Source of the DNA: Pontiella desulfatans
Lineage (GTDB): Bacteria > Verrucomicrobiota > Kiritimatiellia > Kiritimatiellales > Pontiellaceae
Reading direction: 5' to 3'
Length of the DNA stretch: 64,000 bases
Assembly: GCF_900890425.1 (NCBI RefSeq)
Contig: NZ_CAAHFG010000001.1
Coordinates: 744,001-808,000 of the forward strand
Shown here: positions 37,827 to 60,060 of the stretch, piece by piece
Numbering within the stretch: position 1 is the first letter of the stretch
How the letters are laid out: the number at the start of each line of letters is the position of its first letter
Program-made: the position numbers and the translations under genes
The notes under the pieces: generated by a model
Told to the model about the DNA's origin: nothing
Databases searched by the model: none
Seen by the model: only the letters and a program-made list of their open reading frames with translations

Positions 37827-38087
37827 ATGCAACGTGATAGAATCATTGAACTCGTTAACGAGGTATTCCTGGAAGATTTTGAAATGGAACCGAACCAGCT
37901 GGTTCCGGAAGTCCACCTGTTCACCGAACTCGGGCTCGATAGCCTGGATGTGGTGGACCTGGTGGTGGCCTTGCAGAAAAAATTCGATGTGTCCATCCGC
38001 GACGACGAACGCATCCGCGATATCCGGACCCTGAATGACCTCTACGACTTTATCGAGACCCTCGGCACGGAAATGGATTCCGAATAA
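37827..38087 (+). CDS. Acyl carrier protein 1
   Basis: This 86-residue four-helix carrier has the phosphopantetheine site in ELGLDSLDVVDLV (Ser39). A strong AAGGAGA lies before the ATG. It is the first gene of the plus-strand lipid/polyene-like cluster and is followed after ten bases by a PlsC-like acyltransferase. It carries growing or starter acyl chains as thioesters. It differs from the housekeeping AcpP by the short acidic helix 2 region and by its context. Two more carrier proteins occur at 52065 and 60988. Confidence 0.92.
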   Translation: MQRDRIIELVNEVFLEDFEMEPNQLVPEVHLFTELGLDSLDVVDLVVALQKKFDVSIRDDERIRDIRTLNDLYDFIETLGTEMDSE

Positions 38088-38097
38088 TCCGGCCGGC

Positions 38098-38847
38098 ATG
38101 CTGCTCCGCCTCCAGACTGTTTGGCTGAACCTTTCGTTCTATTTCCTTTTCCTCGCCGTTTCGGCCCTGCTCATTCCTGTTCTTATTGTGATCGGAGTTG
38201 TGTTTGTTCCGTTCGGCCCGTGGCGCAGGACCATGGGGCGCACCCGTTTCCTCATCAAGGTCTATGGCCACGTGATGATGGTGATGGGCGTTCCCCTGCT
38301 GCGCGTGAAGGGCGAGCGGATGCATGGCAAGCCGCCGCAACCGTGCATCTACATCTGCAACCACCGCTCCGCCTGCGATGCCTTCACCATGGCCATGCTA
38401 CCGGGCGAAATCGTTCAGGTGGTGAATGTCTGGCCGTTCAAGCTGCCCGTGCTCGGGTTCTTTGCAAAGTTTGCGGGCTACATGAGCATCCGCGAAATGC
38501 CGCCGGAGGAATTCATGCGGCGCGGTGAAAAATTCCTGGAGCAGGGGGTTTCCATTGCGGCCTTCCCGGAAGGCACGCGCGCCACCTCCCGCCAGATGGG
38601 CTCGTTCCATGGCGCCTTGTTCCGGTTGGCCTTGAGAACCGGGGCTCCGATTGTTCCCGTTTGTCTTTCCGGCACCGAAAAGTCGCCGCCCAAGGGGACG
38701 TTGGTCTTGCAACCCACCACCATCCGGGTGCGGCCGCTCAAACCCGTTATGCAGGAAACCTATCGCGACATGTCCCCGTTCAAGCTGAAAAACCTGGTGC
38801 GCGGGCTCATTGCCGAAGAACTGGATCGAATGGAGCTGGCCGGATGA
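38098..38847 (+). CDS. PlsC-like 1-acylglycerol-3-phosphate acyltransferase family protein
   Basis: This membrane-anchored acyltransferase of about 249 residues has its start at ATG 38098, ten bases after the carrier protein stop. The N-terminus is a hydrophobic helix pair (LSFYFLFLAVSALLIPVLIVIGVVFVPFG). The catalytic H-x4-D box is NHRSACD, and the second block is FPEGTRA; both are standard for the LPLAT/PlsC family. It probably transfers the cluster's acyl product to a lipid or glycerol acceptor. Similar genes occur in aryl-polyene clusters. The 3' end overlaps the next start (ATGA). Confidence 0.88.
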   Translation: MLLRLQTVWLNLSFYFLFLAVSALLIPVLIVIGVVFVPFGPWRRTMGRTRFLIKVYGHVMMVMGVPLLRVKGERMHGKPPQPCIYICNHRSACDAFTMAMLPGEIVQVVNVWPFKLPVLGFFAKFAGYMSIREMPPEEFMRRGEKFLEQGVSIAAFPEGTRATSRQMGSFHGALFRLALRTGAPIVPVCLSGTEKSPPKGTLVLQPTTIRVRPLKPVMQETYRDMSPFKLKNLVRGLIAEELDRMELAG

Positions 38848-40127
38848 CTTCCTTTGCCCGAAACGATGCCCTCGAGTTTGCCTCTCCGGATGATGTCCGG
38901 GCGGCGCAGGAGCAACTGCTTCGGCGGCATTTGGAATATTGTGTTGAAGCGTCCCCGTTCTACCGGGAGCAGCTCGCCGGGCTGGATCTCGGAGCGGTCT
39001 CCCTGGAGGAGCTGCCACTCACCGATAAAATGGCGGTTTCGATTCGCAATTCGGAGTTTGTTGCCGTGGACCCCGAAAAGGTGGCGGACATCGTTTTTTC
39101 ATCCGGAACCACGGGGTGGCCAACGAAAATCATGTATACGCAGGGGGATCTGGAGCGACTCGCCTATAACGAAGAGCGCGCGTTCAATGCCTGCGGCATA
39201 ACCTCCTCCGACATTGTCCTGCTCACCTGCACAATGGATCGCTGCTTCATTGCGGGACTGGCCTATTTCCTGGGCGCCCGCGCGGTCGGCGCCGCCGCCA
39301 TCCGCAATGGCCACGGCACGATGGAGGGGCATGGCGAGGTGCTCAAGCACGCCAGCCCGACCGTGATTGTCGGCGTGCCCTCGTTCCTGCGAAAGCTGGG
39401 GGAACACCTGTCGGCAAAGGGAATCGATTTGCCCGGCTCTTCCGTTGAGAAGCTCGTCTGCATCGGCGAGCCGCTGCGCGATGCCGCCATGGCGGCGCTC
39501 TCCGTGGCGACCGATCTTGAGCGCATCTGGGGCGCAAAGGTCTATTCCACCTATGCTTCGTCGGAAACCGTAACCACCTTCTGCGAATGCACCGAGCAGG
39601 CGGGCGGCCACCTGCATCCCGCGTTGGGGCTGGTGGAAATCCTCGATGAGGCGGGCAACGAAGTGCCCGATGGCGAACCCGGCGAAGTGGTCGTCACCCC
39701 CCTCGGAGTGCAGGGCATGCCGCTGGTGCGCTACCGCACCGGCGACATCAGTTTTATCAACCTCGCCCCCTGCGCCTGCGGGCGAACCTCGGCGCGCCTG
39801 GGGCCGATCATCGGGCGCAAGCTGCAGCTGCTGAAAGTGCAGGGAACGAGTCTTTATCCGCAATCCGTCTTTACCGCGCTCGACGAGATGCCGGAGGTGA
39901 GCGAATATTACCTGGAGGTTTTATCGGACGGTCCGCTTTCGGATCGCTTGGTGGTGCACCTCGCGTTCAGCGCCCGCCCGGTCGAGGTTGATGTTGTGCT
40001 GCGCCGCCTGCAGGCGCGTTTGCGGGTGAAGCCCGAAGTGATTATCGAGCCCATGGCGGATATCCGCCGCGTTGTGTTTACACCGGAGTCGCGCAAGCCC
40101 GTCCGGTTCATTGATTTGAGAGGATAG
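38844..40127 (+). CDS. PaaK-like AMP-forming acyl/aryl-CoA (or ACP) ligase
   Basis: This 427-residue member of the phenylacetate-CoA ligase branch of adenylate-forming enzymes starts at ATG 38844, overlapping the acyltransferase stop. The P-loop is VFSSGTTGWPTK. Also present are STYASSETVTTFCECTEQ (acceptor/ATP contacts), GMPLVRYRTGDIS and the C-terminal hinge GRKLQLLKVQGTSLYPQSV. It probably activates an aromatic or short acid starter and loads it on the carrier protein. No ammonia-lyase or chorismate-lyase for making an aromatic starter is visible in the window. Confidence 0.85.
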   Translation: MTSFARNDALEFASPDDVRAAQEQLLRRHLEYCVEASPFYREQLAGLDLGAVSLEELPLTDKMAVSIRNSEFVAVDPEKVADIVFSSGTTGWPTKIMYTQGDLERLAYNEERAFNACGITSSDIVLLTCTMDRCFIAGLAYFLGARAVGAAAIRNGHGTMEGHGEVLKHASPTVIVGVPSFLRKLGEHLSAKGIDLPGSSVEKLVCIGEPLRDAAMAALSVATDLERIWGAKVYSTYASSETVTTFCECTEQAGGHLHPALGLVEILDEAGNEVPDGEPGEVVVTPLGVQGMPLVRYRTGDISFINLAPCACGRTSARLGPIIGRKLQLLKVQGTSLYPQSVFTALDEMPEVSEYYLEVLSDGPLSDRLVVHLAFSARPVEVDVVLRRLQARLRVKPEVIIEPMADIRRVVFTPESRKPVRFIDLRG

Positions 40128-40129
40128 CC

Positions 40130-41599
40130 ATGTCGTGCCATGCATTTTGCGATGAAGCCGGGTTCAGCCTGGAGGAAATCAAGGCGGCCGCCGCGGACGG
40201 CCGGCTCCTGACCATGGAAATCGAATGCAGCCGTGTCTGCAACTTCCGATGCCCCTACTGCTACCAGGATGCCGAAACCCACAACGAGTTGACCCTCGAC
40301 GAAATCAAGGCGCTGGTGCTCCAGGCGCGCGACCTTGGGGCGCAGGGCATCATTATCCTCGGTGGCGAGCCGATGATCTATCCGCACATCTTCGAGGTCA
40401 TCGAATACATCTGCGAAAGCGGCATGAAGGTCGAACTCTTCACCAACGGCTCGAACATCACCGCCGAAAACGCGCAGCGTCTTGCCGATCTCGACGTGAA
40501 GGTGGTGCTGAAGCTCAACTCGCGCAATCCCGAGGTGCAGAACAAGCTCTGCGGCATTCCCAACGCCCACGCCATCATCAGTTCGGCTTTTGGGAATCTG
40601 AAGAGCGCCGGCTATGGCGACGGTGGAAAGCCCATGGCCGCCAGCTCGATCATCAGTGCGCTGAACTATGACGAACTGGAGGAAATGTGGAACTGGTTGC
40701 GCGACCAGCGGATCGACCCCTACTTCGAAATGATCACCCCGCAGGGCGGGGCGGTCGAAAACGATTGGGTCTACGAGGATCCCAAGAAGGTCGAGGAGCT
40801 GTTCGAAAAGTTTGCCGAGTCCGACCGGAAGCGGTTCGGGGTGGACTGGAAACCGCAGCCGCCGCTTGCGGGCGAGCGCTGCATGCGCCACCAGTTTTCG
40901 TGCTACGTCGATGCCGTCGGGAACGTCATGCCCTGCGTCGGTGTCGACATCCCGGTCGGGAACATTCGCGAAAAGCCGCTCAAGCAGGTGCTTGCCGAAA
41001 GCGAAGTCATCCAGGATCTGCGCAACCACCTCCAGGAAATCAAGGGGCCATGCGCCGAATGCCCGGAAAAGGAGGGATGCTACGGGTGCCGCGGCGCGGC
41101 CTACCAAATGACCGGCGACTATCTCGCGTCCGATCCGCTCTGCTGGAAAAACATCGACAAGCAGCACGAGATCGACCGTTTGCCGATCGCCGCCGAAGGC
41201 CTGATCCCGCAGCAAGCGCCGATGCAGATGGTGGAGTCGCTTCTTTTCCTGGGCGAGCGACGGGCCTTGGTCCAAACGGTTGTTGGAGAATCGAACCTCT
41301 TCCTGGATGAGGACGGTAACCTGGAGGAAGTGGCTTATATCGAGATGGTGGCCCAGGCGGCCGCGCTGTTCAACGGGTTCCGTACCCGGCACCGCGACGA
41401 AGATCCCGCCGGCTTCCTGCTTGGCGCCAAGGGTTTCACGTTCCATGGCAACGTGCAGGCAGGGGACCGGCTGGTGGTCGAGGCCACCAAGGACACCGGC
41501 TTCGGTGCGTTCAGCATTGTGAATGGCCGGGTCTTGCGGGGGGAAGAGTGCATGGCCGAAGGCCAGATCAAAATCTACCACGAAGAGGCCTCCGCATGA
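40130..41599 (+). CDS. Radical SAM/SPASM enzyme fused to a hotdog 3-hydroxyacyl-ACP dehydratase domain
   Basis: The 489 residues form two domains. Residues 25-345 are radical SAM: the [4Fe-4S] ligands are C37, C41 and C44 in CNFRCPYC, the GGEP motif is present, and a Cys-rich SPASM/twitch-like C-terminal part (about 255-335, CMRHQFSCYVDAVGNVMPC and CAECPEKEGCYGC) would bind auxiliary clusters. Residues of about 355-485 begin LIPQQAPMQMVESL and continue VQTVVGESNLFLD...YIEMVAQAAALF, the layout of ApeP/FabA-like hotdog dehydratases found in aryl-polyene clusters. The domains are joined in frame with no internal stop or start. The start follows the ligase gene by two bases. A radical step acting on a carrier-bound chain coupled to dehydration is inferred. 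Confidence 0.85.
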   Translation: MSCHAFCDEAGFSLEEIKAAAADGRLLTMEIECSRVCNFRCPYCYQDAETHNELTLDEIKALVLQARDLGAQGIIILGGEPMIYPHIFEVIEYICESGMKVELFTNGSNITAENAQRLADLDVKVVLKLNSRNPEVQNKLCGIPNAHAIISSAFGNLKSAGYGDGGKPMAASSIISALNYDELEEMWNWLRDQRIDPYFEMITPQGGAVENDWVYEDPKKVEELFEKFAESDRKRFGVDWKPQPPLAGERCMRHQFSCYVDAVGNVMPCVGVDIPVGNIREKPLKQVLAESEVIQDLRNHLQEIKGPCAECPEKEGCYGCRGAAYQMTGDYLASDPLCWKNIDKQHEIDRLPIAAEGLIPQQAPMQMVESLLFLGERRALVQTVVGESNLFLDEDGNLEEVAYIEMVAQAAALFNGFRTRHRDEDPAGFLLGAKGFTFHGNVQAGDRLVVEATKDTGFGAFSIVNGRVLRGEECMAEGQIKIYHEEASA

Positions 41600-42282
41600 A
41601 CACCATGTTTAAACCACGGAACACACAGAACACACGGAAGAGAAAAAGTCTAATCATTCCGTGTATTCTGTGTATTCCGTGGTTCATCTCAATCACTTGC
41701 ATTGCGGAGGAGGGGCAGGCGGCGCTGCTGCAGGACCTGGAAAAAAGCTTTTCCTCGATCCAAACGGTGCAGACCAACTTTAAGCAGGAAAAGGCGCTCA
41801 AGATCTTCAAGCGCACCATCCGGATGGATGGGCGGCTGGTGCTCGAAAACCCGGGCAAGATGGCGTGGCGCATCAACTCGCCCATCCGCTATGTGCTGAT
41901 CCTCAACGGCGAGCACGCCATCCAGTGGGACGAAGACAGCAACCAGATCCAGAAGCAGAAAACCTCCGGCGATCCCGTCTTCGAAGAAGTGATCGGCCAA
42001 ATTGAAAAATGGTTCTCCGGCGAGTTTGCCTCGCTGCTGGACGACTACGACCTGACCGTGAAAAGCCGGCAACCGCCCGTGCTTCAATTTGTTCCAAAGG
42101 CCGACGGCATGGTGGGCAAGGTGATCAAGAGCCTGACCATCAACGTGCGCGACGACCGCACCTACGTTGAGCAAATCGTGATCGAGGACATGGGGGGCGA
42201 CACCACCTCCATCACCTTCATCGACACGGTGCTCAACGCCCCGGTTCCCGAAAAGGAGTGGGAGGTTGGCCAGGATGGGTGA
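41596..42282 (+). CDS. LolA-like outer-membrane lipoprotein carrier of the cluster
   Basis: This protein of about 228 residues overlaps the previous stop (ATGA). The mature part (AALLQDLEKSFSSIQTVQTNFKQEK, MDGRLVLENPGKMAWRINSP, VLILNGEHAIQWDEDSNQI) is a typical LolA/LppB fold, periplasmic and predicted to carry lipids. Such proteins accompany MMPL exporters in aryl-polyene clusters. The signal peptide is odd: residues 6-32 (KPRNTQNTRKRK then SLIIPCILCIPWFIS) are encoded by the two arms of a 73-base palindrome (41612-41684). The positively charged n-region and the hydrophobic h-region thus come from opposite strands of the same repeat phrase. Confidence 0.85.
   Translation: MNTMFKPRNTQNTRKRKSLIIPCILCIPWFISITCIAEEGQAALLQDLEKSFSSIQTVQTNFKQEKALKIFKRTIRMDGRLVLENPGKMAWRINSPIRYVLILNGEHAIQWDEDSNQIQKQKTSGDPVFEEVIGQIEKWFSGEFASLLDDYDLTVKSRQPPVLQFVPKADGMVGKVIKSLTINVRDDRTYVEQIVIEDMGGDTTSITFIDTVLNAPVPEKEWEVGQDG
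41612..41684. repeat. Palindromic repeat P1 inside the lolA-like signal-peptide region
   Basis: The arms 41612-41639 and 41657-41684 are complementary at 26 of 28 positions, with a 17-base spacer. The left arm starts AACCACGGAACACACAGAAC. It is in frame and encodes the n- and h-regions of a signal peptide. Confidence 0.9.
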
Positions 42283-44659
42283 GGGGCGTTTTCCAGCCTT
42301 GTTCAATCATTTTCTTTCACACCCGCGCCGGGTTGCCGCGGGTGTTGCCCTGCTGGTGTTGCTCTCCGCCGCCGGTCTGCTCTTCATTCCCTTCCGCCAT
42401 TCCATGGAAGTCATGCTGCCCTCCGGCAGCGACACGCAGAAGGCCGTCGGCTTTTTGCAGGATATCGATTTCTCGGCCAAGGTGGCCGTTTCCTTTTCGC
42501 TGAAAGAGGGCGGGGCCGACCCGGCCGGACTCTTTGCGGCGGTCGATGGATTTGTCGACTCGCTCGAACCGCCGATGATCACCCAGGTGCTCAGCACGGT
42601 CGATGAACAACAGATGATCCGCGACATCGGCGTGTTCCTCGAACGCGCCCCCGAGCTGCTGGGGCCGGGCGGGCTGGCCGAACTGGAGAAGAACACCACC
42701 CGCGAGGGGGTCGCCAAAAGCCTGCGCAAAAAATATGTGCAGTTGCTCAAGCCCGAGGGGTCGTTCATGGCCGCCATGATCCAGCGCGACCCGCTCGATA
42801 TCCAAATGGCGATGATCGAAAAGATCCGCGCGCTCTCCTCGTCGTTCGGCTACGACATGCGCATCGAAAAAGGCCACCTCGTCAGCGCCGACGGCAAGCA
42901 GGTCCTGCTGGTGCTCGAAACCGACATTCCCTTCACCGATGCCGGTGGCTCGCACGCGTTGGTCGGATATCTGACCGAACGCATGGAGGCCCTGCCGCCT
43001 GCGATCGATGCCGAGATGGTCTGCGGCCACCTGCACACCATCAGCAACGAAAAGGTGATCCGCCACGACATCAGCCTAACCGTCACCATTGCCTCCGTTG
43101 CCTTCGTGCTGCTCTTCCTCTTGTTCTTCCGCGATCTCCGCGCCAACCTCATCTTCATCGTTCCGTTCGCGGCCTTGCTCGTTGCCGTCAACCTTGCCGC
43201 ACTCCTGCTCGGAACCCTATCGCCGATGATGCTCGGCTTCGGCTCGGTGGTCAGCGGGATTGCGGTCGACTATGGCATCCATGTCTATGTCGCCGTCCGC
43301 CGTTCCAGCTCCGCCCTGGAAGCCGTCCGTTCGGTGGCCAAGCCGATCATGCTCGGTGCGCTCACCACGGCAGGGGTCTTCGCCGCCTTTTATTCCAGCA
43401 CGATTCCCGGCTACCACCAGCTCGCCACCTTCGCCCTGCTCAGCGTCGTCTTTTCCGTCCTCGGCGCGCTCTTCATCCTGCCGGTCTATTTGAAACCGCG
43501 AAAGAACGCAGGGAACGCAAAACACACACAGTCGCAAAGCAATCTTTGTGTTCCTTGCGCTCTTTCGCGGTTAAATAATCCGTACGTCATACTCGCTGCT
43601 TTCATTGTGCTTTTGGCGGCGGCGGTTCCGGTGGCGCTTCAAGTTGAATTCGATTCCGACATCATGGGGCTCGATGGCACCGAACGGCACATCATCGAGA
43701 CCGAGCAACGCTTCGCGGAATCCTTCGGCGGCGGTAGCGCCGGGCAGGCGGTCGCGGTGGTGGCCGATGCCGACTATGAAAAAGCCTTGGCGAAAAACGA
43801 CCGGGTCTACGATGCGCTGCCCGATCGGCTCGCCAGCTTCAGCGCCATCTGGAAATCGCATGCGAACCGCCGGGCCAACGCCGAAAACTGGAACGCCTTC
43901 TGGAGCGAAGCCAAGGTGGCCAACCTAAAGACGCTCTTTGCCGAAGAGGGCGAGCCGTATGGGTTCGCCGTCGATGCCTTTGAACCGTTCTTCCAATCGC
44001 TGGAGCTTCCGGAAGTCGATCCCGCCGATCCGAAGGACAATGTGCTGTTCGGGCAGCTGAAGCAGCGCTTCGTGGCGACGGTCGATGGCGAAACGCGGGT
44101 CTTTTCCTTTTTCCCCGATGAGCCCGAACTGATTCAGGCGCTGGCCGGCCTGGAGGATGTGCTGCTGATTTCCCGCACCGCGATCTCGGAGTCGCTGGCG
44201 GAGGACTATACCCGCGAGTTTGGGCGCATCACCTTGGTGGCGCTCGGGTTGGTGTTGCTGATGAGTGCCATTCTGCTGAAGAACGTCCGCAAGGTGTTGA
44301 TCGTGCTGGCACCGGCCGCGGCGGGGGTGGCAAGTGTGGCGGCGCTGGTGCGGCTGGTCGGAACGGAGTTGAACGTGATGAACCTGGTTTCGGGCATCAT
44401 CGTCATTGGCCTCTGCGTCGATTATGGCATTTTCAAGGTGCACGCCTTCACCCATTCGCTCAACCTCGGCACCCGTACCGCCATCTCGCTTTCCGCCGGC
44501 ACCACGCTGATCGGGGCGGGGGCGCTGCTCTTCACGATGCACCCGGCGCTGTTTGCGGTGGGCCTCACGCTCGTCGGTGGCATCTCGGCCGGCTATGCCA
44601 CCTCGATGCTCGTCGTCCCCGCCCTCTGCTCCCTCTTTTTACAGGAGAAGCAGGCATGA
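42275..44659 (+). CDS. MMPL/RND-family lipid exporter
   Basis: This inner-membrane transporter of about 794 residues starts at ATG 42275, overlapping the lolA-like gene by eight bases; TTG 42266 is an alternative. Each half has one helix, a large periplasmic domain and a bundle of five to six helices. The first bundle contains VVSGIAVDYGIHVYVAVRR and the second GIIVIGLCVDYGIFKVHAF, the repeated proton-relay region of MMPL proteins. It is probably the exporter for the cluster's lipid, handing it to the LolA-like carrier. The loop between the halves (near 410-435, KPRKNAGNAKHTQSQSNLCV) is encoded by an in-frame palindromic repeat (43494-43572). Confidence 0.9.
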   Translation: MGEGRFPALFNHFLSHPRRVAAGVALLVLLSAAGLLFIPFRHSMEVMLPSGSDTQKAVGFLQDIDFSAKVAVSFSLKEGGADPAGLFAAVDGFVDSLEPPMITQVLSTVDEQQMIRDIGVFLERAPELLGPGGLAELEKNTTREGVAKSLRKKYVQLLKPEGSFMAAMIQRDPLDIQMAMIEKIRALSSSFGYDMRIEKGHLVSADGKQVLLVLETDIPFTDAGGSHALVGYLTERMEALPPAIDAEMVCGHLHTISNEKVIRHDISLTVTIASVAFVLLFLLFFRDLRANLIFIVPFAALLVAVNLAALLLGTLSPMMLGFGSVVSGIAVDYGIHVYVAVRRSSSALEAVRSVAKPIMLGALTTAGVFAAFYSSTIPGYHQLATFALLSVVFSVLGALFILPVYLKPRKNAGNAKHTQSQSNLCVPCALSRLNNPYVILAAFIVLLAAAVPVALQVEFDSDIMGLDGTERHIIETEQRFAESFGGGSAGQAVAVVADADYEKALAKNDRVYDALPDRLASFSAIWKSHANRRANAENWNAFWSEAKVANLKTLFAEEGEPYGFAVDAFEPFFQSLELPEVDPADPKDNVLFGQLKQRFVATVDGETRVFSFFPDEPELIQALAGLEDVLLISRTAISESLAEDYTREFGRITLVALGLVLLMSAILLKNVRKVLIVLAPAAAGVASVAALVRLVGTELNVMNLVSGIIVIGLCVDYGIFKVHAFTHSLNLGTRTAISLSAGTTLIGAGALLFTMHPALFAVGLTLVGGISAGYATSMLVVPALCSLFLQEKQA
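43494..43572. repeat. Palindromic repeat P2 inside the MMPL exporter gene
   Basis: The arms 43494-43521 and 43545-43572 are complementary at 25 of 28 positions, with a 23-base spacer. The left arm starts AACCGCGAAAGAACGCAGGG. It lies exactly between the two membrane halves of the exporter and keeps the frame open. Confidence 0.9.
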
Positions 44660-45411
44660 GGTTTCTTAAACAGAAGGCCGCAAAGTACGCAAAGGGGGAT
44701 AGGGCCTGCCTGTCTTTGCGTACTTTGCGATCTTCTGTCGGACTAATTCTGATGTTCTTGACCGGGTGCGCCACGGTGCCGTTCGAGGCGGCGCCCAAGG
44801 GCGATTTCCGGGAGGCGGAACCCTCCGGCGTTGTGGAAACGTTCGGCGCGGCGGTTGCCCAGGAGTTCGAACTGCTCGAAAGCGTGGTCTTTCGGTTTTT
44901 CACCCAGGGCTTCACCGGGCTCGGCTACCTTTCCATCGAACCGGCCAACGAAGCCTACGCGCTCTCGTGCATGACGCCGGCGGGGATTTCGCTGTTCGGT
45001 TTGCAAGGCAAGGGCGAGGTGGTGGAGCCGCTCTTTGTTCCGCCGCAGATGGAAAAACACCAGGACAAAATCTTCGCCGCCATCGGGCAGGATCTGCGGC
45101 GAATCTATTTGAACTGGGTGCCTCCCGAAAACGCAGCGGTGAAACACCGCAAGCGGAGCATGGTTTTCGTGCATAAGGCGGACGGCGAAACCATCGAGTG
45201 GGTTTTTTCCGGACAACGGCAACGGTTGACTGAAAAACGCTTTGCCCGGGGCTGGAGGACGGATGCCGTCGTGCGCTACTACGACTATGAAGAGCACGGC
45301 GGAAAGTTGTATCCGATGGGCGTGGTTCTGTATAACAAGCGTTTCCACTACCGAATGGTTTTCCGCGTGAAGGAGATTTATCCGTTTAAGGACGATAAGG
45401 AGGCAAAATGA
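44656..45411 (+). CDS. DUF3261-like outer-membrane lipoprotein of the export module
   Basis: The 251 residues overlap the exporter stop by four bases. The lipobox is FLTGC (Cys38). The mature part (VFRFFTQGFTGLGYLSIEP, YALSCMTPAGISLFGL, VRYYDYEEHGGKLYPMGVVLYN) has the size, beta content and position of the DUF3261 lipoproteins found after LolA and MMPL genes in aryl-polyene clusters. Residues 5-27 of the signal region (QKAAKYAK ... LSLRTLRSS) are encoded by palindromic repeat P3, giving an unusually long n-region. It is expected to receive the exported lipid at the outer membrane. Confidence 0.75.
   Translation: MRFLKQKAAKYAKGDRACLSLRTLRSSVGLILMFLTGCATVPFEAAPKGDFREAEPSGVVETFGAAVAQEFELLESVVFRFFTQGFTGLGYLSIEPANEAYALSCMTPAGISLFGLQGKGEVVEPLFVPPQMEKHQDKIFAAIGQDLRRIYLNWVPPENAAVKHRKRSMVFVHKADGETIEWVFSGQRQRLTEKRFARGWRTDAVVRYYDYEEHGGKLYPMGVVLYNKRFHYRMVFRVKEIYPFKDDKEAK
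44671..44737. repeat. Palindromic repeat P3 inside the lipoprotein signal-peptide region
   Basis: The arms 44671-44694 and 44714-44737 are complementary at 22 of 24 positions, with a 19-base spacer. The left arm starts CAGAAGGCCGCAAAGTACGC. It encodes the positively charged n-region before the lipobox. Confidence 0.9.
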
Positions 45412-45499: not shown

Positions 45500-45847
45500 G
45501 TGAGAAAAGAAATAGACGCTTTATTGAAAAACTTCGTTTCGGACGGCGATGCCGCCTCGGCCGAGCTGGCGTTCCCCGCTGGCTTTTCCGGTTTCCAGGG
45601 GCACTTCCCGGAACAGCCGGTGCTGCCGGGCGTCTGCCAACTGACGCTGGCCATGGTGATGGCGGACCGCATGTGCGGCAAACGCATGAAAATGGGGGCC
45701 GCAACCAATGCCAAGTTTGTTGCGATGGTGGTTCCGGATCAGCCGTTGGAAATCAAGTGTACGTTGGCCGATGGCACGCTCAGCGCCAGCCTGACCTCGA
45801 AGGGCGAGCGGGTGGGCCAGTTTAAGTTGAAGGTGGAACATGCGTAG
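45500..45847 (+). CDS. FabZ/ApeI-like hotdog 3-hydroxyacyl-ACP dehydratase
   Basis: The 115 residues have a GTG start with GTAGGTAG upstream. The central helix motif is GFQGHFPEQPVLPGVCQLTLAM, with the catalytic His35 of the FabZ GHFP box. The acidic residue that normally follows on the helix (E in FabZ PGVLILEAMAQ) is replaced by Thr, so dehydration might need another acid or the partner hotdog protein. It follows the lipoprotein gene after an 88-base gap that contains no gene. It is analogous to the ApeI-type dehydratase of aryl-polyene clusters. Confidence 0.82.
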   Translation: MRKEIDALLKNFVSDGDAASAELAFPAGFSGFQGHFPEQPVLPGVCQLTLAMVMADRMCGKRMKMGAATNAKFVAMVVPDQPLEIKCTLADGTLSASLTSKGERVGQFKLKVEHA

Positions 45848-46319
45848 GAAAAAGCACTATTTCAAGCGCGAGCCGGGCGCTCCCGATCCGCTGGAGTTTT
45901 CCTTCCAGCGGCGTGCCCGTTTCGGGGAAGTGGATGCCATGGCGGTGATGTGGCATGGCCACTATGCGACCCTGTTCGAAGAGGCCTCTTCCGAGCTGCG
46001 GCGCCTCAGCGGCCTGGGCTATGAGGATTTCTTTGCGGCGGAGGTCTATGCGCCGATCGTCCAGCTGCACGTCGATTATTTCAGCTCCTTGCTGCTCGAC
46101 GAACTCTTCACCGTCAAGGCGCGCATGCTGTGGACGGATGCCGCCCGCATCAATATCGAGTATGAAGTGCACAAGGAAGACGGGAGCCTGGCCGCGACGG
46201 GATTCACGGTTCAGCTCTTCAGTTCGGCGACGACGGGGGAGCCGTGTTTCACGGTGCCGCCGTTGCTCGAAAAACAGCAGGAGCTTTGGAAGGGCGGCCG
46301 GCTGGGAGGTGGGGAATGA
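45840..46319 (+). CDS. 4-hydroxybenzoyl-CoA thioesterase-family acyl thioesterase
   Basis: This 159-residue hotdog enzyme overlaps the dehydratase by eight bases. The hallmark RFGEVDAMAVMWHGHYATLFEEA contains the catalytic-type Asp followed by the V-M-W-H-x-x-Y segment of YbgC/4HBT thioesterases. It probably releases or edits carrier-bound acyl chains. Such a gene is regular in aryl-polyene clusters. Confidence 0.87.
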   Translation: MRRKKHYFKREPGAPDPLEFSFQRRARFGEVDAMAVMWHGHYATLFEEASSELRRLSGLGYEDFFAAEVYAPIVQLHVDYFSSLLLDELFTVKARMLWTDAARINIEYEVHKEDGSLAATGFTVQLFSSATTGEPCFTVPPLLEKQQELWKGGRLGGGE

Positions 46320-47443
46320 ACAAGGTGGTTATTACGGACTATGATCTGATTACACCCTATGGCCTCGGTGCCCATGTCTGCTGGCAGGGGCTGCTCAGCG
46401 GCGTGAGCGCACTGGCCGAACTCGACCGGTTCGATACCTCCGAGTTCAAAAGCAGCATGGGCGGGATTGTCCCCGGGCTTTCCTACCACGCCGGCCAGTC
46501 GTTGGTAGTGCAGATGCTCGAAAAAGTGCTGGAGGGGAAGCGGATTCCGAAGGATGCCAAACTCTCCATCGCCACGCTCAACGGCGAGATGGACAAGGTG
46601 GAGGAAAAGGTGCTCCACGACCGCGGCGAGCCGCACGATAGCTGCATGACGGTGCTGCTGGAGGCCGCCCGGCAACTCACGGGCGTGGAGGACGAAGGGG
46701 TGGTGGTTTCTTCGGCATGCGCCTCCTCGACCGTTGCCTTGGGCCTGGCGGCCTCGGCCATCCGCTCGGGCGAAATCGATTGCGCGGTGGTGGTTTCCTG
46801 CGATCCGGTCACCGAATTCCTCTATTCCGGTTTTTCTTCGCTGATGGCGCTCGATTCGGGGGCCTCCAGTCCGTTCGATGAAAAGCACGACGGGTTGACC
46901 ATTGGCGAGGCGGCGGGCTATGCCGTGCTGATGAGCGATGTGCGCGCGAGAGAGGAAGGCTGCGCCAACCTCGGCGAGCTGCTCGGGTGGGGCATGAGCA
47001 ACGATGCCAACCACATGACCGGCCCGTTGCGCGACGGTTCCGGCCTGGCGCGTTCGATCCATATCGCGCTGAAGGTCGCCGGCATCGATGAAGCGCAAAT
47101 CGACTTCATCGCCGCGCACGGCACCGGTACGATCTATAACGACTTGATGGAAATGTCGGCGTTCCATACCGTCTTTTCCTCGCCCCGCCCGACCTATTCG
47201 GTGAAAGGCGGCATTGGCCACACCATGGGGGCCGCCGGGCTGGTGGAAGCCATGCTGGCGTTGAAAACCTTTGAAACCGGGATGGTTCCCCCTTCGGTCC
47301 GGATGAAGAATCCGGAAGCCTCGGCGGCCGGCTGGGTGCTTGACCGACCGATGGAGCTGGAGGCCGATTATGTGCTTTCAACCAATGCCGGATTTGGCGG
47401 CGTGAATGCCTCGCTGGTTTTGAAGAGGGGAGGTGCCCAATGA
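46316..47443 (+). CDS. Beta-ketoacyl-ACP synthase 1 (FabF-like, complete)
   Basis: The 375 residues start at ATG 46316, overlapping the thioesterase stop. The catalytic triad is intact: Cys135 in SSACASST, His268 in AAHGTGTIYND, and Lys297/His302 in KGGIGHTMGAAG. It is shorter than FabF, mainly in the N-terminal cap. It is a type II condensing enzyme for chain extension, and the adjacent short ketosynthase-like protein (47440) is its likely partner as a chain-length factor. Confidence 0.9.
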   Translation: MNKVVITDYDLITPYGLGAHVCWQGLLSGVSALAELDRFDTSEFKSSMGGIVPGLSYHAGQSLVVQMLEKVLEGKRIPKDAKLSIATLNGEMDKVEEKVLHDRGEPHDSCMTVLLEAARQLTGVEDEGVVVSSACASSTVALGLAASAIRSGEIDCAVVVSCDPVTEFLYSGFSSLMALDSGASSPFDEKHDGLTIGEAAGYAVLMSDVRAREEGCANLGELLGWGMSNDANHMTGPLRDGSGLARSIHIALKVAGIDEAQIDFIAAHGTGTIYNDLMEMSAFHTVFSSPRPTYSVKGGIGHTMGAAGLVEAMLALKTFETGMVPPSVRMKNPEASAAGWVLDRPMELEADYVLSTNAGFGGVNASLVLKRGGAQ

Positions 47444-48003
47444 GCATCGAGGTGATCGGGTGTGGATGGCTGACCCAGGATTCCTATGGTTCGGACAAGC
47501 TGAACCGCTCGGTGGAGTGGGCTTCCCGCACCGCGTTGCGCGGGATCGGCAAGGAGGATGGGCTCTTTGCCTATCCGGTGAAAAACTTCGGGCGCTTCCC
47601 GGCGATTGCCCAGCGCGTCTGCTATGTGACGGCGCTGGCGCTGCAGGATGCGGGGCTGGAATATGCCAAGGGCGAGAAGCAGGACATCGGTTTGCTGGGC
47701 ATGGATGAATATGGCTGCGAGCAGGCCAACTTCGACTATTTCAACGACTATGTGGACGGCGGCCGCTCCATGGCGCGCGCCAATCTGTTCATCTACACGC
47801 TCCCCTCAAGCCCGCTGGCCGAAGCCGCCGTGCATTTCGGTTTGCAGGGGCCGCTCTTCTACTACCGCAACCAGCAGGCCTCGGTCGGGGAGTTGATGGT
47901 GACCGCGCGCAGAATGATTGAGGACGGCCAGGCCCAGCAGGTGCTCGTCTATGAACTCGGAAGCGAAATCGATCGTTGCTTTGTTGTGGGAGATAAAGGT
48001 TAA
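47440..48003 (+). CDS. Short ketosynthase-like (chain-length-factor) protein, probably 3'-truncated
   Basis: The 187 residues overlap KS1 by four bases. The sequence follows the N-terminal thiolase half (IEVIGCGWLTQDSYG, VCYVTALALQDAGL, DIGLLGMDEYG), with PLAEAAVHFGLQGPLFYYRNQQ where a catalytic KS has its Cys; no Cys is present. It resembles the 62539 protein but stops early at VVGDKG, precisely where base composition drops at the edge of the TIR gene. It is therefore likely that the C-terminal end was lost when that gene inserted. Confidence 0.7.
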   Translation: MSIEVIGCGWLTQDSYGSDKLNRSVEWASRTALRGIGKEDGLFAYPVKNFGRFPAIAQRVCYVTALALQDAGLEYAKGEKQDIGLLGMDEYGCEQANFDYFNDYVDGGRSMARANLFIYTLPSSPLAEAAVHFGLQGPLFYYRNQQASVGELMVTARRMIEDGQAQQVLVYELGSEIDRCFVVGDKG

Positions 48004-52064: not shown

Positions 52065-52307
52065 ATGGAAAAAATTGAGACCGAACTAAGGGAACGGATC
52101 GCCGGCATCCTTTCATTGGAAACCGACGGGCTGGATATGGAGGCGCCGTTGCACACGCTGGGGCTCGACTCGATGCGCATGGTTGAAATCCTGGTGTTCA
52201 TCGAAACGCACTATGGAATCGATCTGATGAAGTCGGGGATGCAGCGCGAAGACATCGCCTCCATCGCCGCGTTGGCGCGCTCGATCGAACGGATGAAATC
52301 GGCATAG
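52065..52307 (+). CDS. Acyl carrier protein 2
   Basis: This 80-residue carrier has the phosphopantetheine attachment site TLGLDSMRMVEI (Ser36). It lies between the condensation-like acyltransferase and the FAD oxidoreductase. The DSM rather than DSL motif and the DLMKSGMQREDIASI region differ from carriers 1 and 3, suggesting a dedicated partner such as the neighbouring acyltransferase or ligase. Confidence 0.9.
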   Translation: MEKIETELRERIAGILSLETDGLDMEAPLHTLGLDSMRMVEILVFIETHYGIDLMKSGMQREDIASIAALARSIERMKSA

Positions 52308-54831: not shown

Positions 54832-56106
54832 ATGAAGATTAAGCTGATCTACCCCAAATGGCCGAAAATGCCGAACCAACCCCAGTTCCACCTGCCGCCC
54901 CATGGCCCGGTGGTTTTTGCCGCCACCATTCCGGATGACGTCGAAATCTCGTTCACCGACGAGCATGTGCAAACGCTGGACTTCAACGAAGCGTGCGACC
55001 TGGTTTTCATCTCCTGCATGCTCACCTGCCAGATCCCGCGCGGTTGGGAAATTGCCGACCAATTCCGGGCAATGGGCAAGAAGGTGGTGATGGGCGGGAT
55101 CGCCACCCATCTGCATGCCGAGGAATCGATGACCCACGCCGACTCGGTGTTCCTGGGCGAAGCCGAAGGCCGCACCGAACAGGTGCTCAAGGATTTCGAG
55201 AGCGGCGCGCTGAAGCCCGTCTACGACTACCGCAACAACTATCCGGACACCGCGCTTATCGGCCCCGCCCGGCGCGACATCCTCGACCGCGAGCTCTACA
55301 ATTTCCGCGGCGTCCAGATGGTCGACCTGATCCACGCCTCGCGCGGTTGCCGTTTCAAATGTTTCCCGTGCTGCACGCCGTATCTCGGTGGATGCCAGTT
55401 CCGCCCGCGCCCGATCGACAAGGTGATCGAGGAGATGGCCGGCGTCGACAACAACCGCTTCTTCGTGGTCGATAACTCGCTCGCGCAGGACGACGAGTGG
55501 GAAAAGGAATTGTTCAAGGCGATGATCCCGCTCAAGAAAAAGTGGGTGTCGCACCCGATCAAGGACAACGACGAAATCCTCGACCTCGCGGCGGAGGCTG
55601 GTTGCTGGTATGTCTACCAGGCCGTCTTCGACACCTCGGACGTCATCCGCAACCGCATCAAGCGTTTGAAGGATCGCGGCATCGGGGTGGAGGGCACGAT
55701 CATCCTCGGCACCGACGACCACGACGAGGATGGCATCAAACGCCTGGTGGATTTCCTGCTGGAGGTCGAACTCGACCTGGCCGAATTCACGGTGATGACC
55801 CCGTTCCCGCACACGCCGATCCGCGACGAAATGGAGAAGGATGGCCGCATCCTGCACAACGATTGGAAAAAATATACCGGCGCGGAGACGGTCTTCAAGC
55901 CGGCGAAGATGTCGCCCGAAAAGCTCGACGAGATGCACCAGTATGCGTGGGACACGTTCTATGGTCCCGGCGGCAAGGAGCTGGCGATGGGCAAGCTCTA
56001 TATGGACGTGATCCAGCGCGAGGTCGCCGATGGAACCTACAAGTCGCCGCGCCTGCGCCGCAAGCAGTGGCAGTCCGACGAGGCGGCTGTGAAGATGGAT
56101 AGCTGA
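54832..56106 (+). CDS. B12-binding-like radical SAM enzyme 2
   Basis: The 424 residues have an N-terminal Rossmann-like cobalamin-binding-type domain (KVVMGGIATHLHAEE, SVFLGEAEGR; the DxHxxG ligand motif is not seen) and a radical SAM core with C173, C177 and C180 in CRFKCFPC. Continuing blocks FFVVDNSLAQDD, VEGTIILGTDDHDED and LAEFTVMTPFPHTPI are typical of the class of B12 radical SAM enzymes of lipid and bacteriochlorophyll pathways. It probably methylates or rearranges a lipid or intermediate. It is followed without spacing by an AlbA_2-type gene. Confidence 0.85.
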   Translation: MKIKLIYPKWPKMPNQPQFHLPPHGPVVFAATIPDDVEISFTDEHVQTLDFNEACDLVFISCMLTCQIPRGWEIADQFRAMGKKVVMGGIATHLHAEESMTHADSVFLGEAEGRTEQVLKDFESGALKPVYDYRNNYPDTALIGPARRDILDRELYNFRGVQMVDLIHASRGCRFKCFPCCTPYLGGCQFRPRPIDKVIEEMAGVDNNRFFVVDNSLAQDDEWEKELFKAMIPLKKKWVSHPIKDNDEILDLAAEAGCWYVYQAVFDTSDVIRNRIKRLKDRGIGVEGTIILGTDDHDEDGIKRLVDFLLEVELDLAEFTVMTPFPHTPIRDEMEKDGRILHNDWKKYTGAETVFKPAKMSPEKLDEMHQYAWDTFYGPGGKELAMGKLYMDVIQREVADGTYKSPRLRRKQWQSDEAAVKMDS

Positions 56107-57486
56107 ATGAAAGAACACCAGAACATGGAGTGGAAGGAATCATGGCATGATGAATATCTGAAATGGATATGTGGTTTTGCCAACGCCAAGGGGGGGCGGC
56201 TTGTTATCGGAATGGGTGACGATGGTTCGGTGGTCGGTCTCCCTAATGCAAGGAAACTGCTCGAGGATCTTCCCAATAAAATCCGTGACCTGCTAGGTAT
56301 TATGGTTGCTGTGAACCTGAAGACGTCGGGAGGCAGAGACTATCTGGAGTTGGACGTCGAAGCTTATCCGGCTCCCGTCAGTTTGCGGGGGCGTTATTAT
56401 TTTCGAAGCGGCAGCACCAAGCAGGAACTGAAGGGGGCTGCACTTGATAAATTTCTCCTTCAAAAGCAGGGCAGGCATTGGGACGGCGTTCCCGTACCCT
56501 TTTTGAAGGCCGAAGATCTCTCTAAGGAGGCTCTTGACGGGTTTCGTCTCCGTGCTGCGGAAAGCAAACGCATGGAGGCGGCGGATCTTGTCGGCAGTGG
56601 GGAGCTGCTGGTCGAAAGATTGAAGCTTCAAGAAGGGGATTATCTCAAAAAAGCCGCAATCCTGCTGTTCTATCCGGATCCAGAAAAATTTGTTACAGGG
56701 GCTTTTCTTAAGATTGGATTTTTCCGCACCGATTCGGATTTGCGTTTTCAGGATGAAGTTCATGGAGACCTGTTCTCGCAAGTAGGCAAAGCGCTTGATT
56801 TTCTGCTGACAAAGTACACAGAAGCGACCATTTCATACAGGGGCGCCCAGCGTGTAGAGCGTTATCCTGTGCCCGCAGAAGCTCTACGGGAAGCCCTCCA
56901 CAATGCAGTTGTTCACAAGGATTATTCCAGTGGGGCGCCGGTCCAGATCAGGGTTTACACGGATAAAATAACCATCTGGAATCCGGGGGGGCTTCCGGTC
57001 GATTGGAGTATCGACCAGCTTCTTGAAAAACATGCGTCACACCCTTTTAATCCCGACATTGCCAATGTGTTTTTTCGGGCGGGCATGATTGAGGCATGGG
57101 GGCGTGGCATCGAGATGATTATGGATTCCTGCCAAGCTGCGGGATTGCCCAGACCGAAGATACGCGGCGATGCGGGGGGGATATGCGTTGAATTACCTTT
57201 TGCTCCCGCTGAACTGCCAGCAGAAGTAGAGTGCGCGCCAGTGAATGATCCGAAGGGAAGTGCTCTGGAGGCTACCCAAGAAACTACCCAAGAAACTACC
57301 CAAGAAAAGATCGTTGCGATTCTGAAAGAGAACCCCGAAACCACGAGGAACGAACTCGCATCCCGGATCGGCATTACGCCTGATGGCATCAAATATCATC
57401 TGACCAAGCTTCGGGTGGCGGGATTGATCAGGCATGTCGGGCCGACGAAGGCTGGGCGCTGGGAAGTTATGGAGGATGATGGATGA
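56107..57486 (+). CDS. AlbA_2 / HATPase-like DNA-binding regulator
   Basis: The 459 residues contain an N-terminal AlbA_2 (Schlafen-like) domain (MEWKESWHDEYLKWICGFANAKGGRLVIGMGDDG), a central part ending ALREALHNAVVHKDYS...ITIWNPGGLP (HATPase_c_4, as in COG2865 'divergent AAA' regulators), a low-complexity linker with TQET repeated, and a C-terminal winged helix (NELASRIGITPDGIKYHLTKLRVAGLIRHVG). The start immediately follows the stop of radical SAM 2, and the stop overlaps the start of radical SAM 3. It is therefore embedded in the operon as a regulator or as former cargo. Confidence 0.85.
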   Translation: MKEHQNMEWKESWHDEYLKWICGFANAKGGRLVIGMGDDGSVVGLPNARKLLEDLPNKIRDLLGIMVAVNLKTSGGRDYLELDVEAYPAPVSLRGRYYFRSGSTKQELKGAALDKFLLQKQGRHWDGVPVPFLKAEDLSKEALDGFRLRAAESKRMEAADLVGSGELLVERLKLQEGDYLKKAAILLFYPDPEKFVTGAFLKIGFFRTDSDLRFQDEVHGDLFSQVGKALDFLLTKYTEATISYRGAQRVERYPVPAEALREALHNAVVHKDYSSGAPVQIRVYTDKITIWNPGGLPVDWSIDQLLEKHASHPFNPDIANVFFRAGMIEAWGRGIEMIMDSCQAAGLPRPKIRGDAGGICVELPFAPAELPAEVECAPVNDPKGSALEATQETTQETTQEKIVAILKENPETTRNELASRIGITPDGIKYHLTKLRVAGLIRHVGPTKAGRWEVMEDDG

Positions 57487-58862
57487 GTGACAACTCGAAA
57501 ATACTATTGATCTCCACCAACTGGGAAACATCGCCGTATCCGGTCTATCCGATCGGGATGGGCATGGTGGCCGCCGCGCTGAAGCGGGCCGGCCACCAGG
57601 TGGAACTGTTCGACTTCCTGCAAAGCGGGTGCTCCTTCGATGCGCTGAAGGAGCGTGTTGCCGCCGTGCGGCCGGATGTGGTGGGGCTTTCGCTGCGCAA
57701 CATCGACAATGTGAATGCCGTCAACGAGCACCGCTACATCGATAGTGTGAAACAGATTGCCGAAAGCGTGCGCCAAACCAGCCCGGCCCCCATCATTCTT
57801 GGAGGCTCCGCCTTTTCCATCATGCCCGAGGAAATCCTGGCGAAGGTCGGAGCGGATTATGGCGTGGTCGGCGAGGGCGAAGTGCTGATGTGCAGCTTCA
57901 TGGAATTGCTGGAGGCCGGGCAGCTGCCGGCGGAACGCATTCTGCGCGCCCCCCAGAATCTTGAGAAGGATGCGATTCCGTCGGCGTATTATGAACCCGC
58001 CATGGTCGATTACTACATGGCGCACGGGAAGACGATTTCGATCCAGACCAAGCGCGGCTGCGATAAGCACTGCATCTACTGCTCCTATCCCTTTCTGGAG
58101 GGACGGAATTTCCGGATGCGTAACGCGGTGGATGTGGTTGACGATATTGAGCGGTTGGTGGCGGACCGCGAGGACAGCTATATCTTTTTTGTCGATTCGG
58201 TGTTCAATGACAACGGGGGGAACTATCGCGACATCGTTCATGAAATGCACCGGCGGGAACTTTGCATTCCGTGGACGGCCTATATCTCGCCGGGCGGGGA
58301 GCTCGACGACGAAATGTTCGCGCTGATGAAAGCGACCGGATTCGATGCCGCCGAGATCGGCGCGGACGCCGCTAGCGATATCGCGCTCAAAGGCATCGGC
58401 AAGGATTTTACCTGGCAGGATGTCATCGATTGCAACGACCTATTCCGGCGCCATGGCATCACGACCGCGCATTACTACATGTTCGGCGGGCCGGGCGAAA
58501 CGAAGGAGACGGTGCTCGAAGGCATTGAAAACATTCGCAACCTGGAACAGACCGCCAACTTCATGTTCATGGGCATCCGCATCCTGCCGGGCACCGGGCT
58601 GATGAAGATTGCGCAGCGCGAAGGGCTGGTGACGGATAAGACCGACATCGTTGAACCGATCTACTACATCTCGAAGGAGGTCGATCGCGATTGGCTCGAA
58701 ACCACGCTGACCGAGGGCTTTGCCGATAAGTTTAACTGCGTTTTCCCGCCCGACGCGCTCGACGACAAGTTGCACCTCCTGCACAAGCTAGGCTACGGCG
58801 GCACCGCCTACGACATGCTCATCGGCGCCGGAAAACGCAAGCGGCGCAAGCGTACAACCTAG
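57483..58862 (+). CDS. B12-binding-like radical SAM enzyme 3
   Basis: The 459 residues have an N-terminal cobalamin-type domain (PIGMGMVAAALKRAGHQVELFD, IILGGSAFSIMPEEIL, GEGEVL) and a radical SAM core with C193, C197 and C200 in CDKHCIYC, followed by AHYYMFGGPGETKETVLEGIEN. It belongs to the broad BchE/ladderane-associated type of B12 radical SAM proteins used in lipid clusters. The pair with radical SAM 2 suggests two successive radical modifications of the acyl chain. The exact reaction cannot be deduced. Confidence 0.85.
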   Translation: MSDNSKILLISTNWETSPYPVYPIGMGMVAAALKRAGHQVELFDFLQSGCSFDALKERVAAVRPDVVGLSLRNIDNVNAVNEHRYIDSVKQIAESVRQTSPAPIILGGSAFSIMPEEILAKVGADYGVVGEGEVLMCSFMELLEAGQLPAERILRAPQNLEKDAIPSAYYEPAMVDYYMAHGKTISIQTKRGCDKHCIYCSYPFLEGRNFRMRNAVDVVDDIERLVADREDSYIFFVDSVFNDNGGNYRDIVHEMHRRELCIPWTAYISPGGELDDEMFALMKATGFDAAEIGADAASDIALKGIGKDFTWQDVIDCNDLFRRHGITTAHYYMFGGPGETKETVLEGIENIRNLEQTANFMFMGIRILPGTGLMKIAQREGLVTDKTDIVEPIYYISKEVDRDWLETTLTEGFADKFNCVFPPDALDDKLHLLHKLGYGGTAYDMLIGAGKRKRRKRTT

Positions 58863-58881: not shown

Positions 58882-60060
58882 TTGAACGAAGTTCTATCAG
58901 ATTCCGTATGGTGCGTGGTTCCCGTTTATAACAACGGCGGGACGGTTGAGGCCGTTGCGCGCGCGTGCCGGGAGCAGCTCGACCACGTGCTGGTGGTGGA
59001 CGACGGCTGCACGGACGTGGATGTGGGCGCGCTGTTCGAAGGTTCGGATATCGAGGTGCTTCGGCACGAGTCCAACATGGGCAAGGGGCAGGCGATTCTG
59101 TCGGCGCTGGAGTTTGTCCATGGGCGTGGCGGGAAATGGATGGTCACCGTCGATGCGGATGGGCAGCACGATCCGGGCGATATCCCAAAGTTTTTTCCGG
59201 CCATGCAGGCACATCCGGACAGCATCATGATCGGCGCGCGCGATTTTTCGGGCGAGAACATTCCGGGGGGCAGCCGGTTTGGCCGCAAGTTTTCCAACTT
59301 CTGGATCAAGCTGGAGTGCGGGACGACCGTTTCGGATTCGCAAAGCGGCTTCCGGGTCTATCCGGTGGAGCTGCTCACCCAAATGAAGCTGAAGGGGAGC
59401 CGCTACGATTTCGAGGTGGAGGTGCTGACCAAGGCGGTTTGGCACGGACTCAAATTGGTGGACGTGCCGATCGGCGTCCACTATCCACCGAAAGACGAGC
59501 GCATTTCCCACTTCGACCAGTGGAAGGACAATGTGCGTTTGTCGGGGCGGCATACGTTGCTGGTTGCACGTCGCCTGGTGCCGTGGCCGCACAAGAAACT
59601 GGTGAAGCCGGACTCCACGGATTGGAAATATTTGCTCAAGCACCCCGGCAAGTTTCTCGCAATGCTGCTGAAGGAAAACTCAACGCCGGTTGAGCTTGGA
59701 GTCGCTGCCGGAGTTGGGATTCTTTTGGCGACGCTTCCGTTGATTGCCTGCCACACCATCGCAATTCTCTATGTCTCGACCAAACTCAACCTCAACCGGC
59801 TGCTGGCACTGAACATCCAGCATCTTTGCGCGCCGCCGTTGGTGCCGATGGCCTGCATCGCCTTGGGATTCTACATGCGCAACGGGCATTGGCTGGGCAT
59901 GGAGGAGCTGAAAACGTTCGCCTCCAACCTGCACCAGCATCTGCTGAATTGGTTGGTCGGATCGCTGGTGCTGGCTCCTGTATTGGCGATTGTTGGCGGA
60001 TTGATCGTGTTCTTCATTGCAAATGGATTGCAACGGAAGGGGGCGGTTGGCCATGCCTGA
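58882..60060 (+). CDS. GT2 glycosyltransferase fused to DUF2062 membrane domain
   Basis: The 392 residues begin with TTG 58882 since no ATG precedes the conserved VWCVVPVYNNGGTVE. The GT-A domain shows VVDDGCTD, VTVDADGQHDP (the DxD) and DSQSGFRVYP, as in dolichyl-phosphate-mannose-synthase-like enzymes. From about 245 the C-terminus has four hydrophobic helices, the DUF2062 type. GT2 enzymes with an appended membrane domain are recurrent in aryl-polyene clusters and probably glycosylate the lipid. The 3' end overlaps the LpxL-like gene by eight bases. Confidence 0.87.
   Translation: MNEVLSDSVWCVVPVYNNGGTVEAVARACREQLDHVLVVDDGCTDVDVGALFEGSDIEVLRHESNMGKGQAILSALEFVHGRGGKWMVTVDADGQHDPGDIPKFFPAMQAHPDSIMIGARDFSGENIPGGSRFGRKFSNFWIKLECGTTVSDSQSGFRVYPVELLTQMKLKGSRYDFEVEVLTKAVWHGLKLVDVPIGVHYPPKDERISHFDQWKDNVRLSGRHTLLVARRLVPWPHKKLVKPDSTDWKYLLKHPGKFLAMLLKENSTPVELGVAAGVGILLATLPLIACHTIAILYVSTKLNLNRLLALNIQHLCAPPLVPMACIALGFYMRNGHWLGMEELKTFASNLHQHLLNWLVGSLVLAPVLAIVGGLIVFFIANGLQRKGAVGHA

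Follow-up and report, generated by a model that had tools for sequence, protein, structure and literature searches.

A radical SAM/SPASM enzyme fused to an ApeP-like hotdog domain in a conserved operon of the 'ladderane-type' lipid kind

Two described systems resemble the locus analysed here. The first is the split dehydratase of ape clusters, whose subunits ApeI and ApeP form a heterodimer sharing a single active site (PMC8041823). The second is the cluster kind reported by Rattray et al. from K. stuttgartiensis, Desulfotalea psychrophila, Geobacter and Pelobacter (PMC2649909). Ladderane biosynthesis has been an open question for some two decades; no substrate has been assigned to the radical SAM genes in its candidate clusters. 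In the window, by which we mean the whole 64,000-nucleotide stretch of Pontiella desulfatans DNA under analysis, elements of both systems meet in a single polypeptide: a radical SAM/SPASM enzyme continues into an ApeP-like hotdog domain. Both domains and the cluster kind are already known, and the new part is their fusion, of which no description was found in the literature searched, largely outside subscription journals. The fusion is widespread, yet apparently an undescribed part of 'ladderane-type' lipid clusters in anaerobic bacteria.

Architecture and distribution of the fusion protein

The fusion gene occupies positions 40130-41599 of the forward strand and is, as originally predicted, one uninterrupted frame of 489 residues, with an ATG start, no internal stop and a stop codon at 41597-41599. 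Its N-terminal part (residues 1-347, 40130..41170, with domains at about 12-347) is assigned by Pfam, AlphaFold2 and fold comparison. Radical_SAM matches residues 32-164 (E 9e-22) and SPASM residues 251-312 (E 6e-9), each scoring higher than its curated cut-off, which bears out the radical SAM motif and cysteine-rich SPASM region recognised from the letters alone. The motif reads C37-N-F-R-C41-P-Y-C44 (CX3CX2C), and seven conserved SPASM cysteines follow at 251, 269, 308, 311, 317, 320 and 338. The ligand positions are strikingly constant: cysteines 37, 41, 44, 251, 269, 308, 311, 317 and 320 are kept in 82/82 homologues and C338 in 81/82. At 311-317-320 the spacing is CX5CX2C; the canonical SPASM spacing is CX5CX3C. 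The nearest structures to this part of the model are the peptide-modifying SPASM enzymes SuiB, PqqE and anSME (Z 23-26), and among the 25 best-scoring named NCBIfam radical SAM equivalogs the protein stays far below cut-off, with AhbD the best at 135.6 of 500 bits.

The C-terminal part (residues 350-489, 41177..41596) was examined in an AlphaFold2 model built as a single chain from 65 homologues (mean pLDDT 91.3, pTM 0.89); a single-sequence model was set aside at a pLDDT of 39.6. Residues 370-484 run strand-strand-helix-four strands, a hotdog fold, with the domain boundary at about residue 349, close to the start near 355 first proposed. Could the two parts nevertheless be made separately? 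An internal start was rejected: the linker is free of ATG and GTG codons up to M365, a residue already inside the hotdog, and no ribosome site is obvious ahead of its sole TTG (codon 351). A linker start codon with a loose Shine-Dalgarno sequence occurs in just 7/82 homologues, where the codons differ and no common place is evident.

The fusion is not a chance event of one genome, because full-length fused homologues are found in many phyla. A tblastn scan of genome contigs returned 356 relatives, of which the best 80 are all fused; these were chosen by full-length similarity, so that 82 fused of 82 overstates the fused share. Their titles name Kiritimatiellota, Verrucomicrobiota/Lentisphaerota, Planctomycetota, Omnitrophota, Nitrospirota and Desulfobacterota-type assemblies, with the proviso that titles of metagenome-assembled genomes can be wrong. 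In a less biased phylum sample of 195 genomes, 17 gave a match at 1e-20, including two with distant relatives. Among the other 15, the match spans both parts in twelve. Of the last three, the first is truncated by a contig edge yet includes the hotdog, another shows a decayed radical SAM domain, and the third is unfused. The domain order, originally thought to fit no standard family, is thus repeated across five or more phyla, as part of a single conserved operon of the published 'ladderane-type' FAS/PKS kind. In one locus (L058 9944-12181) the frame even continues into LolA (746 aa), which is either a triple fusion or an assembly error.

The hotdog domain and its predicted partner

Fold comparison of residues 351-489 ranks ApeP (6qsr_B, from the ApeI:ApeP heterocomplex 6QSR) as the top hotdog, with Z 19.9 and rmsd 2.9 over 139 residues. 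FabZ structures trail by less than one Z unit; therefore, structure alone cannot separate ApeP from FabZ. This separation is provided by phmmer, which places 6qsr_B first for the fusion protein (1.5e-6 versus 0.003). The ApeP-like nature of the domain is thus upheld by phmmer and fold ranking, though the Pfam ApeP-like model PF22817 stays sub-threshold on the window hotdog (15.0 of 27 bits). Glu405 is present in 82/82 homologues and Gln409 in 81/82, and in phmmer alignments Glu405 lines up with the corresponding Glu in both ApeP and anammox FabZ. The catalytic His is absent from the fused hotdog: in the alignment to ApeP and FabZ, the FabZ His position is a gapped, non-His stretch. The expectation of a hotdog dehydratase was therefore right in type but not in completeness, as the domain looks like one subunit of a heterodimer rather than a whole enzyme.

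Where, then, might the missing residue come from? A forward-strand ORF at 45500..45847, in the same operon, encodes an ApeI-like hotdog subunit (GHFP, His35), whose best match is 6qsr_A, the other chain of complex 6QSR. Its homologues keep the GHF His in 48/48 cases, whereas Glu at the FabZ position is found in 3/48 and missing in the remaining 45. By tblastn, this ApeI gene was detected in 45 of the 49 loci with at least 6 kb of downstream sequence, four having no detectable ApeI. With Glu on the fused hotdog and His on the product of ORF 45500-45847, the active site is likely split between the two, and by analogy with 6QSR we infer that they form an ApeI/ApeP-type heterodimer. That the C terminus of the fusion acts as a dehydratase half is highly probable, and is the better supported assignment of the two parts.

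The operon and its variants in relatives

The window genes of the operon listed next all lie on the forward strand. Upstream of the fusion gene are an acyl carrier protein (ACP, 37827..38087, Pfam PP-binding), a PlsC-type acyltransferase (38098..38847, start inferred, Pfam Acyltransferase) and an adenylate-forming, FlxY/phenylacetate-CoA-ligase-like ligase (PCL, 38841..40127), which reaches 422 bits on NF053551 (FlxY) at a cut-off of 520. The ATG of a LolA-like gene (41596..42282) overlaps the fusion-gene stop (ATGA), and is followed by an MMPL/RND-type lipid exporter (42266..44659), a small lipoprotein-like protein placed at the ApeN/DUF3261 position by operon position and synteny only, without a Pfam match (44656..45411), and the ApeI-like gene. 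Next come a 4HBT thioesterase-like protein (45840..46319), a ketosynthase (46316..47443) and a short ketosynthase-like protein (KSx, 47440..48003), which may be a chain-length-factor-like partner. Further along lie a second acyl carrier protein (52065..52307), two B12-binding radical SAM proteins, B12b (54832..56106) and B12a (57483..58862, 635 bits on the NCBI equivalog TIGR04072, rSAM_ladder_B12, cut-off 360), and a family 2 glycosyltransferase with DUF2062 (58882..60060).

Gene clustering of 80 loci from several phyla yields the order KR-PDS-KS-ACP-LPLAT-PCL-fusion-LolA-MMPL-DUF3261-ApeI-TE-KS-KSx-B12b-B12a-GT2, in which names are those of the window gene, except that KR and the phytoene-desaturase-like PDS were named by sequence look. 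The window keeps this order from ACP through KSx. KR and PDS genes lie together elsewhere in the same genome, about 3.5 Mb from the window operon (contig C1, 4316301-4318594), and this KR is 93% identical to that of locus L022. Counting this remote pair, the ladderane-type FAS set is complete: radical SAM, B12-binding radical SAM, PCL, PDS-like protein, ketosynthase paralogues, glycosyltransferase and membrane exporter. An ApeH-type ligase and an ApeB methyltransferase were not recognised among the window genes searched. The link to a cluster for carrier-bound chains, originally read from the window alone, is reinforced by the FAS/PKS operon, with which the fusion tracks across phyla.

Two further genes interrupt the window operon. 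A low-GC TIR-NLR-like gene (48023-50524; TIR, NTPase and TPR; PADLOC TIR-NLR 1.9e-29) sits between KSx and an acyltransferase-like gene, which are directly adjacent in L022. A Schlafen/AlbA_2, HATPase and HTH gene (56107-57486) separates B12b from B12a, which are adjacent in most other loci reaching that far. B12b has orthologues of 66-83% identity in seven further genomes of the phylum sample, distant ones among them; against about 41-61% for the fusion protein, it is clearly the better conserved of the two. Strict coupling between them was rejected, because a close B12b orthologue is missing from six genomes of that sample in which the fusion occurs; the radical step would therefore not strictly depend on B12b.

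The architecture differs in anammox-class genomes, where the radical SAM protein has no hotdog in 8 of the 11 matching genomes. Of the six neighbourhoods without the hotdog that were inspected, five share the order deacetylase-like, KS, KS, unassigned gene, KS, KSx, PCL, radical SAM, B12a, (KR), ACP, FabZ, unassigned gene, MMPL, PDS, GT. The published listing from Kuste3351 to Kuste3335 has the same order, with SAM methylases at the two unassigned places (PMC4790861). Judged by gene order rather than direct comparison, the unfused protein is probably the Kuste3343 counterpart. Here the PCL and B12-binding radical SAM neighbours persist beside the unfused enzyme, and the FabZ of one such cluster (G372) has both His and Glu. 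In the sixth neighbourhood (G414, L162 9405-10799) a C-terminal ACP domain replaces the hotdog (PF00550, 8.4e-10). Elsewhere, the two parts are simply neighbours: in G245, radical SAM and ApeP are encoded separately, by adjacent genes about 95 bases apart; AGGAGG precedes the second, whose product passes the PF22817 cut-off (28.3 bits). In G148 the radical SAM gene adjoins PCL and a B12-binding radical SAM gene. This genome was rejected as a case of the enzyme without any FAS/PKS genes, since another of its contigs, C29, bears KS, KR, ACP, a B12-binding radical SAM gene and, on its own, an ApeP-like hotdog that has the Glu but lacks the His. The reverse loss is seen in G016 (L104 8934-10223), where CX3CX2C and the Pfam Radical_SAM match are gone while SPASM and hotdog are kept; B12a had no match in this genome at 1e-15.

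In a quick tree search without bootstrap, the unfused and ACP-fused proteins form one clade against the fused ones (SH-aLRT 99), a pattern that a single fusion or a single fission would account for. Choosing between the two by rooting was rejected, as the branch to the outgroup is too long (length 5) for the root to be sure. The original prediction had gone further and coupled a radical reaction directly to dehydration. Since the domains part company in relatives, two activities on one carrier-protein assembly fit better than one obligatorily coupled reaction.

Proposed function and comparison with known systems

How might the two activities work together? We consider the fusion to be a half-dehydratase subunit that carries a radical enzyme for carrier-bound chains or starters, a reading that as a whole is the best explanation and probably correct. 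It would be a two-function subunit of an anaerobic ladderane-type or aryl-polyene-like lipid assembly line. Its hotdog would contribute the Glu half of a heterodimeric 3-hydroxyacyl-ACP dehydratase and ORF 45500-45847 the catalytic His; the composite active site would then dehydrate the chain after each round of ketosynthase and ketoreductase. The N-terminal part would carry out a reductively initiated 5'-deoxyadenosyl-radical reaction on an ACP-held substrate, either the chain or a PCL-activated starter, and may work together with the neighbouring PCL and B12-binding radical SAM enzymes. That this part acts on carrier-bound substrates is somewhat favoured by the neighbours, by the attachment of an ACP-using enzyme and by the ACP fusion; the evidence for a link to ACP comes from a single ACP-fused relative, present in one assembly, and from gene neighbourhood. 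As to the reaction type, an oxidative, dehydrogenation-like step would fit the SPASM region and the AhbD/NirJ-type similarity (far below cut-off), but this is a guess. More speculative still, and rather unlikely as a whole, is that the radical domain is an oxygen-independent, ACP-dependent chain modifier (e.g. a desaturase or ring-forming enzyme) acting between extension rounds and exchanging chains with the attached dehydratase, the anammox orthologue performing the corresponding step toward ladderanes.

The fusion might instead be a scaffold or stoichiometry device only, with the ApeP half dehydrating the chain and the radical part serving an unrelated step, be it an aryl or acyl starter with PCL or protein modification, without a shared substrate. 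We regard this as unlikely, though with a real claim to attention: the domains are separate in relatives, PCL directly adjoins the radical SAM gene in fused and anammox-class unfused clusters, the ApeH-ApeI ligase-dehydratase fusion in Acinetobacter is a published precedent (PMC8041823), and the nearest structures modify peptides. However, the alternative fusion partner in G414 is itself an acyl carrier protein, and an unsystematic look at the neighbourhoods noticed no precursor peptide gene.

Two narrower alternatives concern one part each. Hotdog domains can bind acyl-ACP without dehydration, and the lack of a FabZ-type His would suit a catalytically dead docking or dimerisation module that recruits the radical enzyme to ACPs while another enzyme dehydrates. 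This is improbable given the (nearly) invariant Glu405 and Gln409, the complementary His of an operon partner that has mostly lost Glu, and the ordinary FabZ with both residues in anammox-class clusters where the radical enzyme is unfused. Least probable of all, the radical domain could be a true ladderane-pathway enzyme, a chain desaturase or ring-forming one, in an organism that makes ladderane or ladderane-like lipids, as the orthologue at the Kuste3343 place and the TIGR04072 match of B12a would suggest. Against this, Desulfotalea psychrophila has a similar cluster, yet ladderanes were not detected (PMC2649909), and heterologous expression of K. stuttgartiensis genes gave no ladderanes, with the Kuste3342 and Kuste3343 proteins not detected there (PMC4790861).

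For our preferred half-dehydratase reading, the wider meaning lies in what the fusion says about its orthologues. Many non-anammox bacteria join an orthologous radical SAM enzyme to half a dehydratase, and one relative joins it to an ACP domain, which points to carrier-bound substrates; the non-anammox fusion proteins are also more tractable for testing the radical SAM enzymes of ladderane clusters. The published ApeI/ApeP split dehydratase would likewise extend to anaerobes of several phyla.

Finally, we would compare the fusion with the known systems. It shares with ApeI:ApeP of Xenorhabdus doucetiae (6QSR) the hotdog fold and the complementary Glu and His on two subunits, and with ape clusters a type II PKS/FAS-like operon that holds the genes for both subunits alongside those for LolA, MMPL and acyltransferase. 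However, the ApeP half here sits behind a radical SAM/SPASM enzyme, and FlxY/PCL and B12-binding radical SAM genes stand in place of a recognised ApeH-type ligase and ApeB methyltransferase. In ApeH-ApeI of Acinetobacter baumannii, too, half of a dehydratase is joined to a further enzyme of its own assembly line (PMC8041823), but there it is the other half, ApeI, and the partner is a ligase instead of a radical enzyme. With SuiB, PqqE, anSME and AhbD/NirJ the protein has the core barrel, CX3CX2C and the cysteine-rich SPASM region in common, and differs in its lipid/PKS neighbourhood and extra hotdog domain. The likeness to the Kuste3343 type is judged from gene order and clear sequence similarity in anammox-class genomes; in contrast to the fusion, that enzyme stands unfused at about 350-380 aa, in the company of a FabZ with both catalytic residues.
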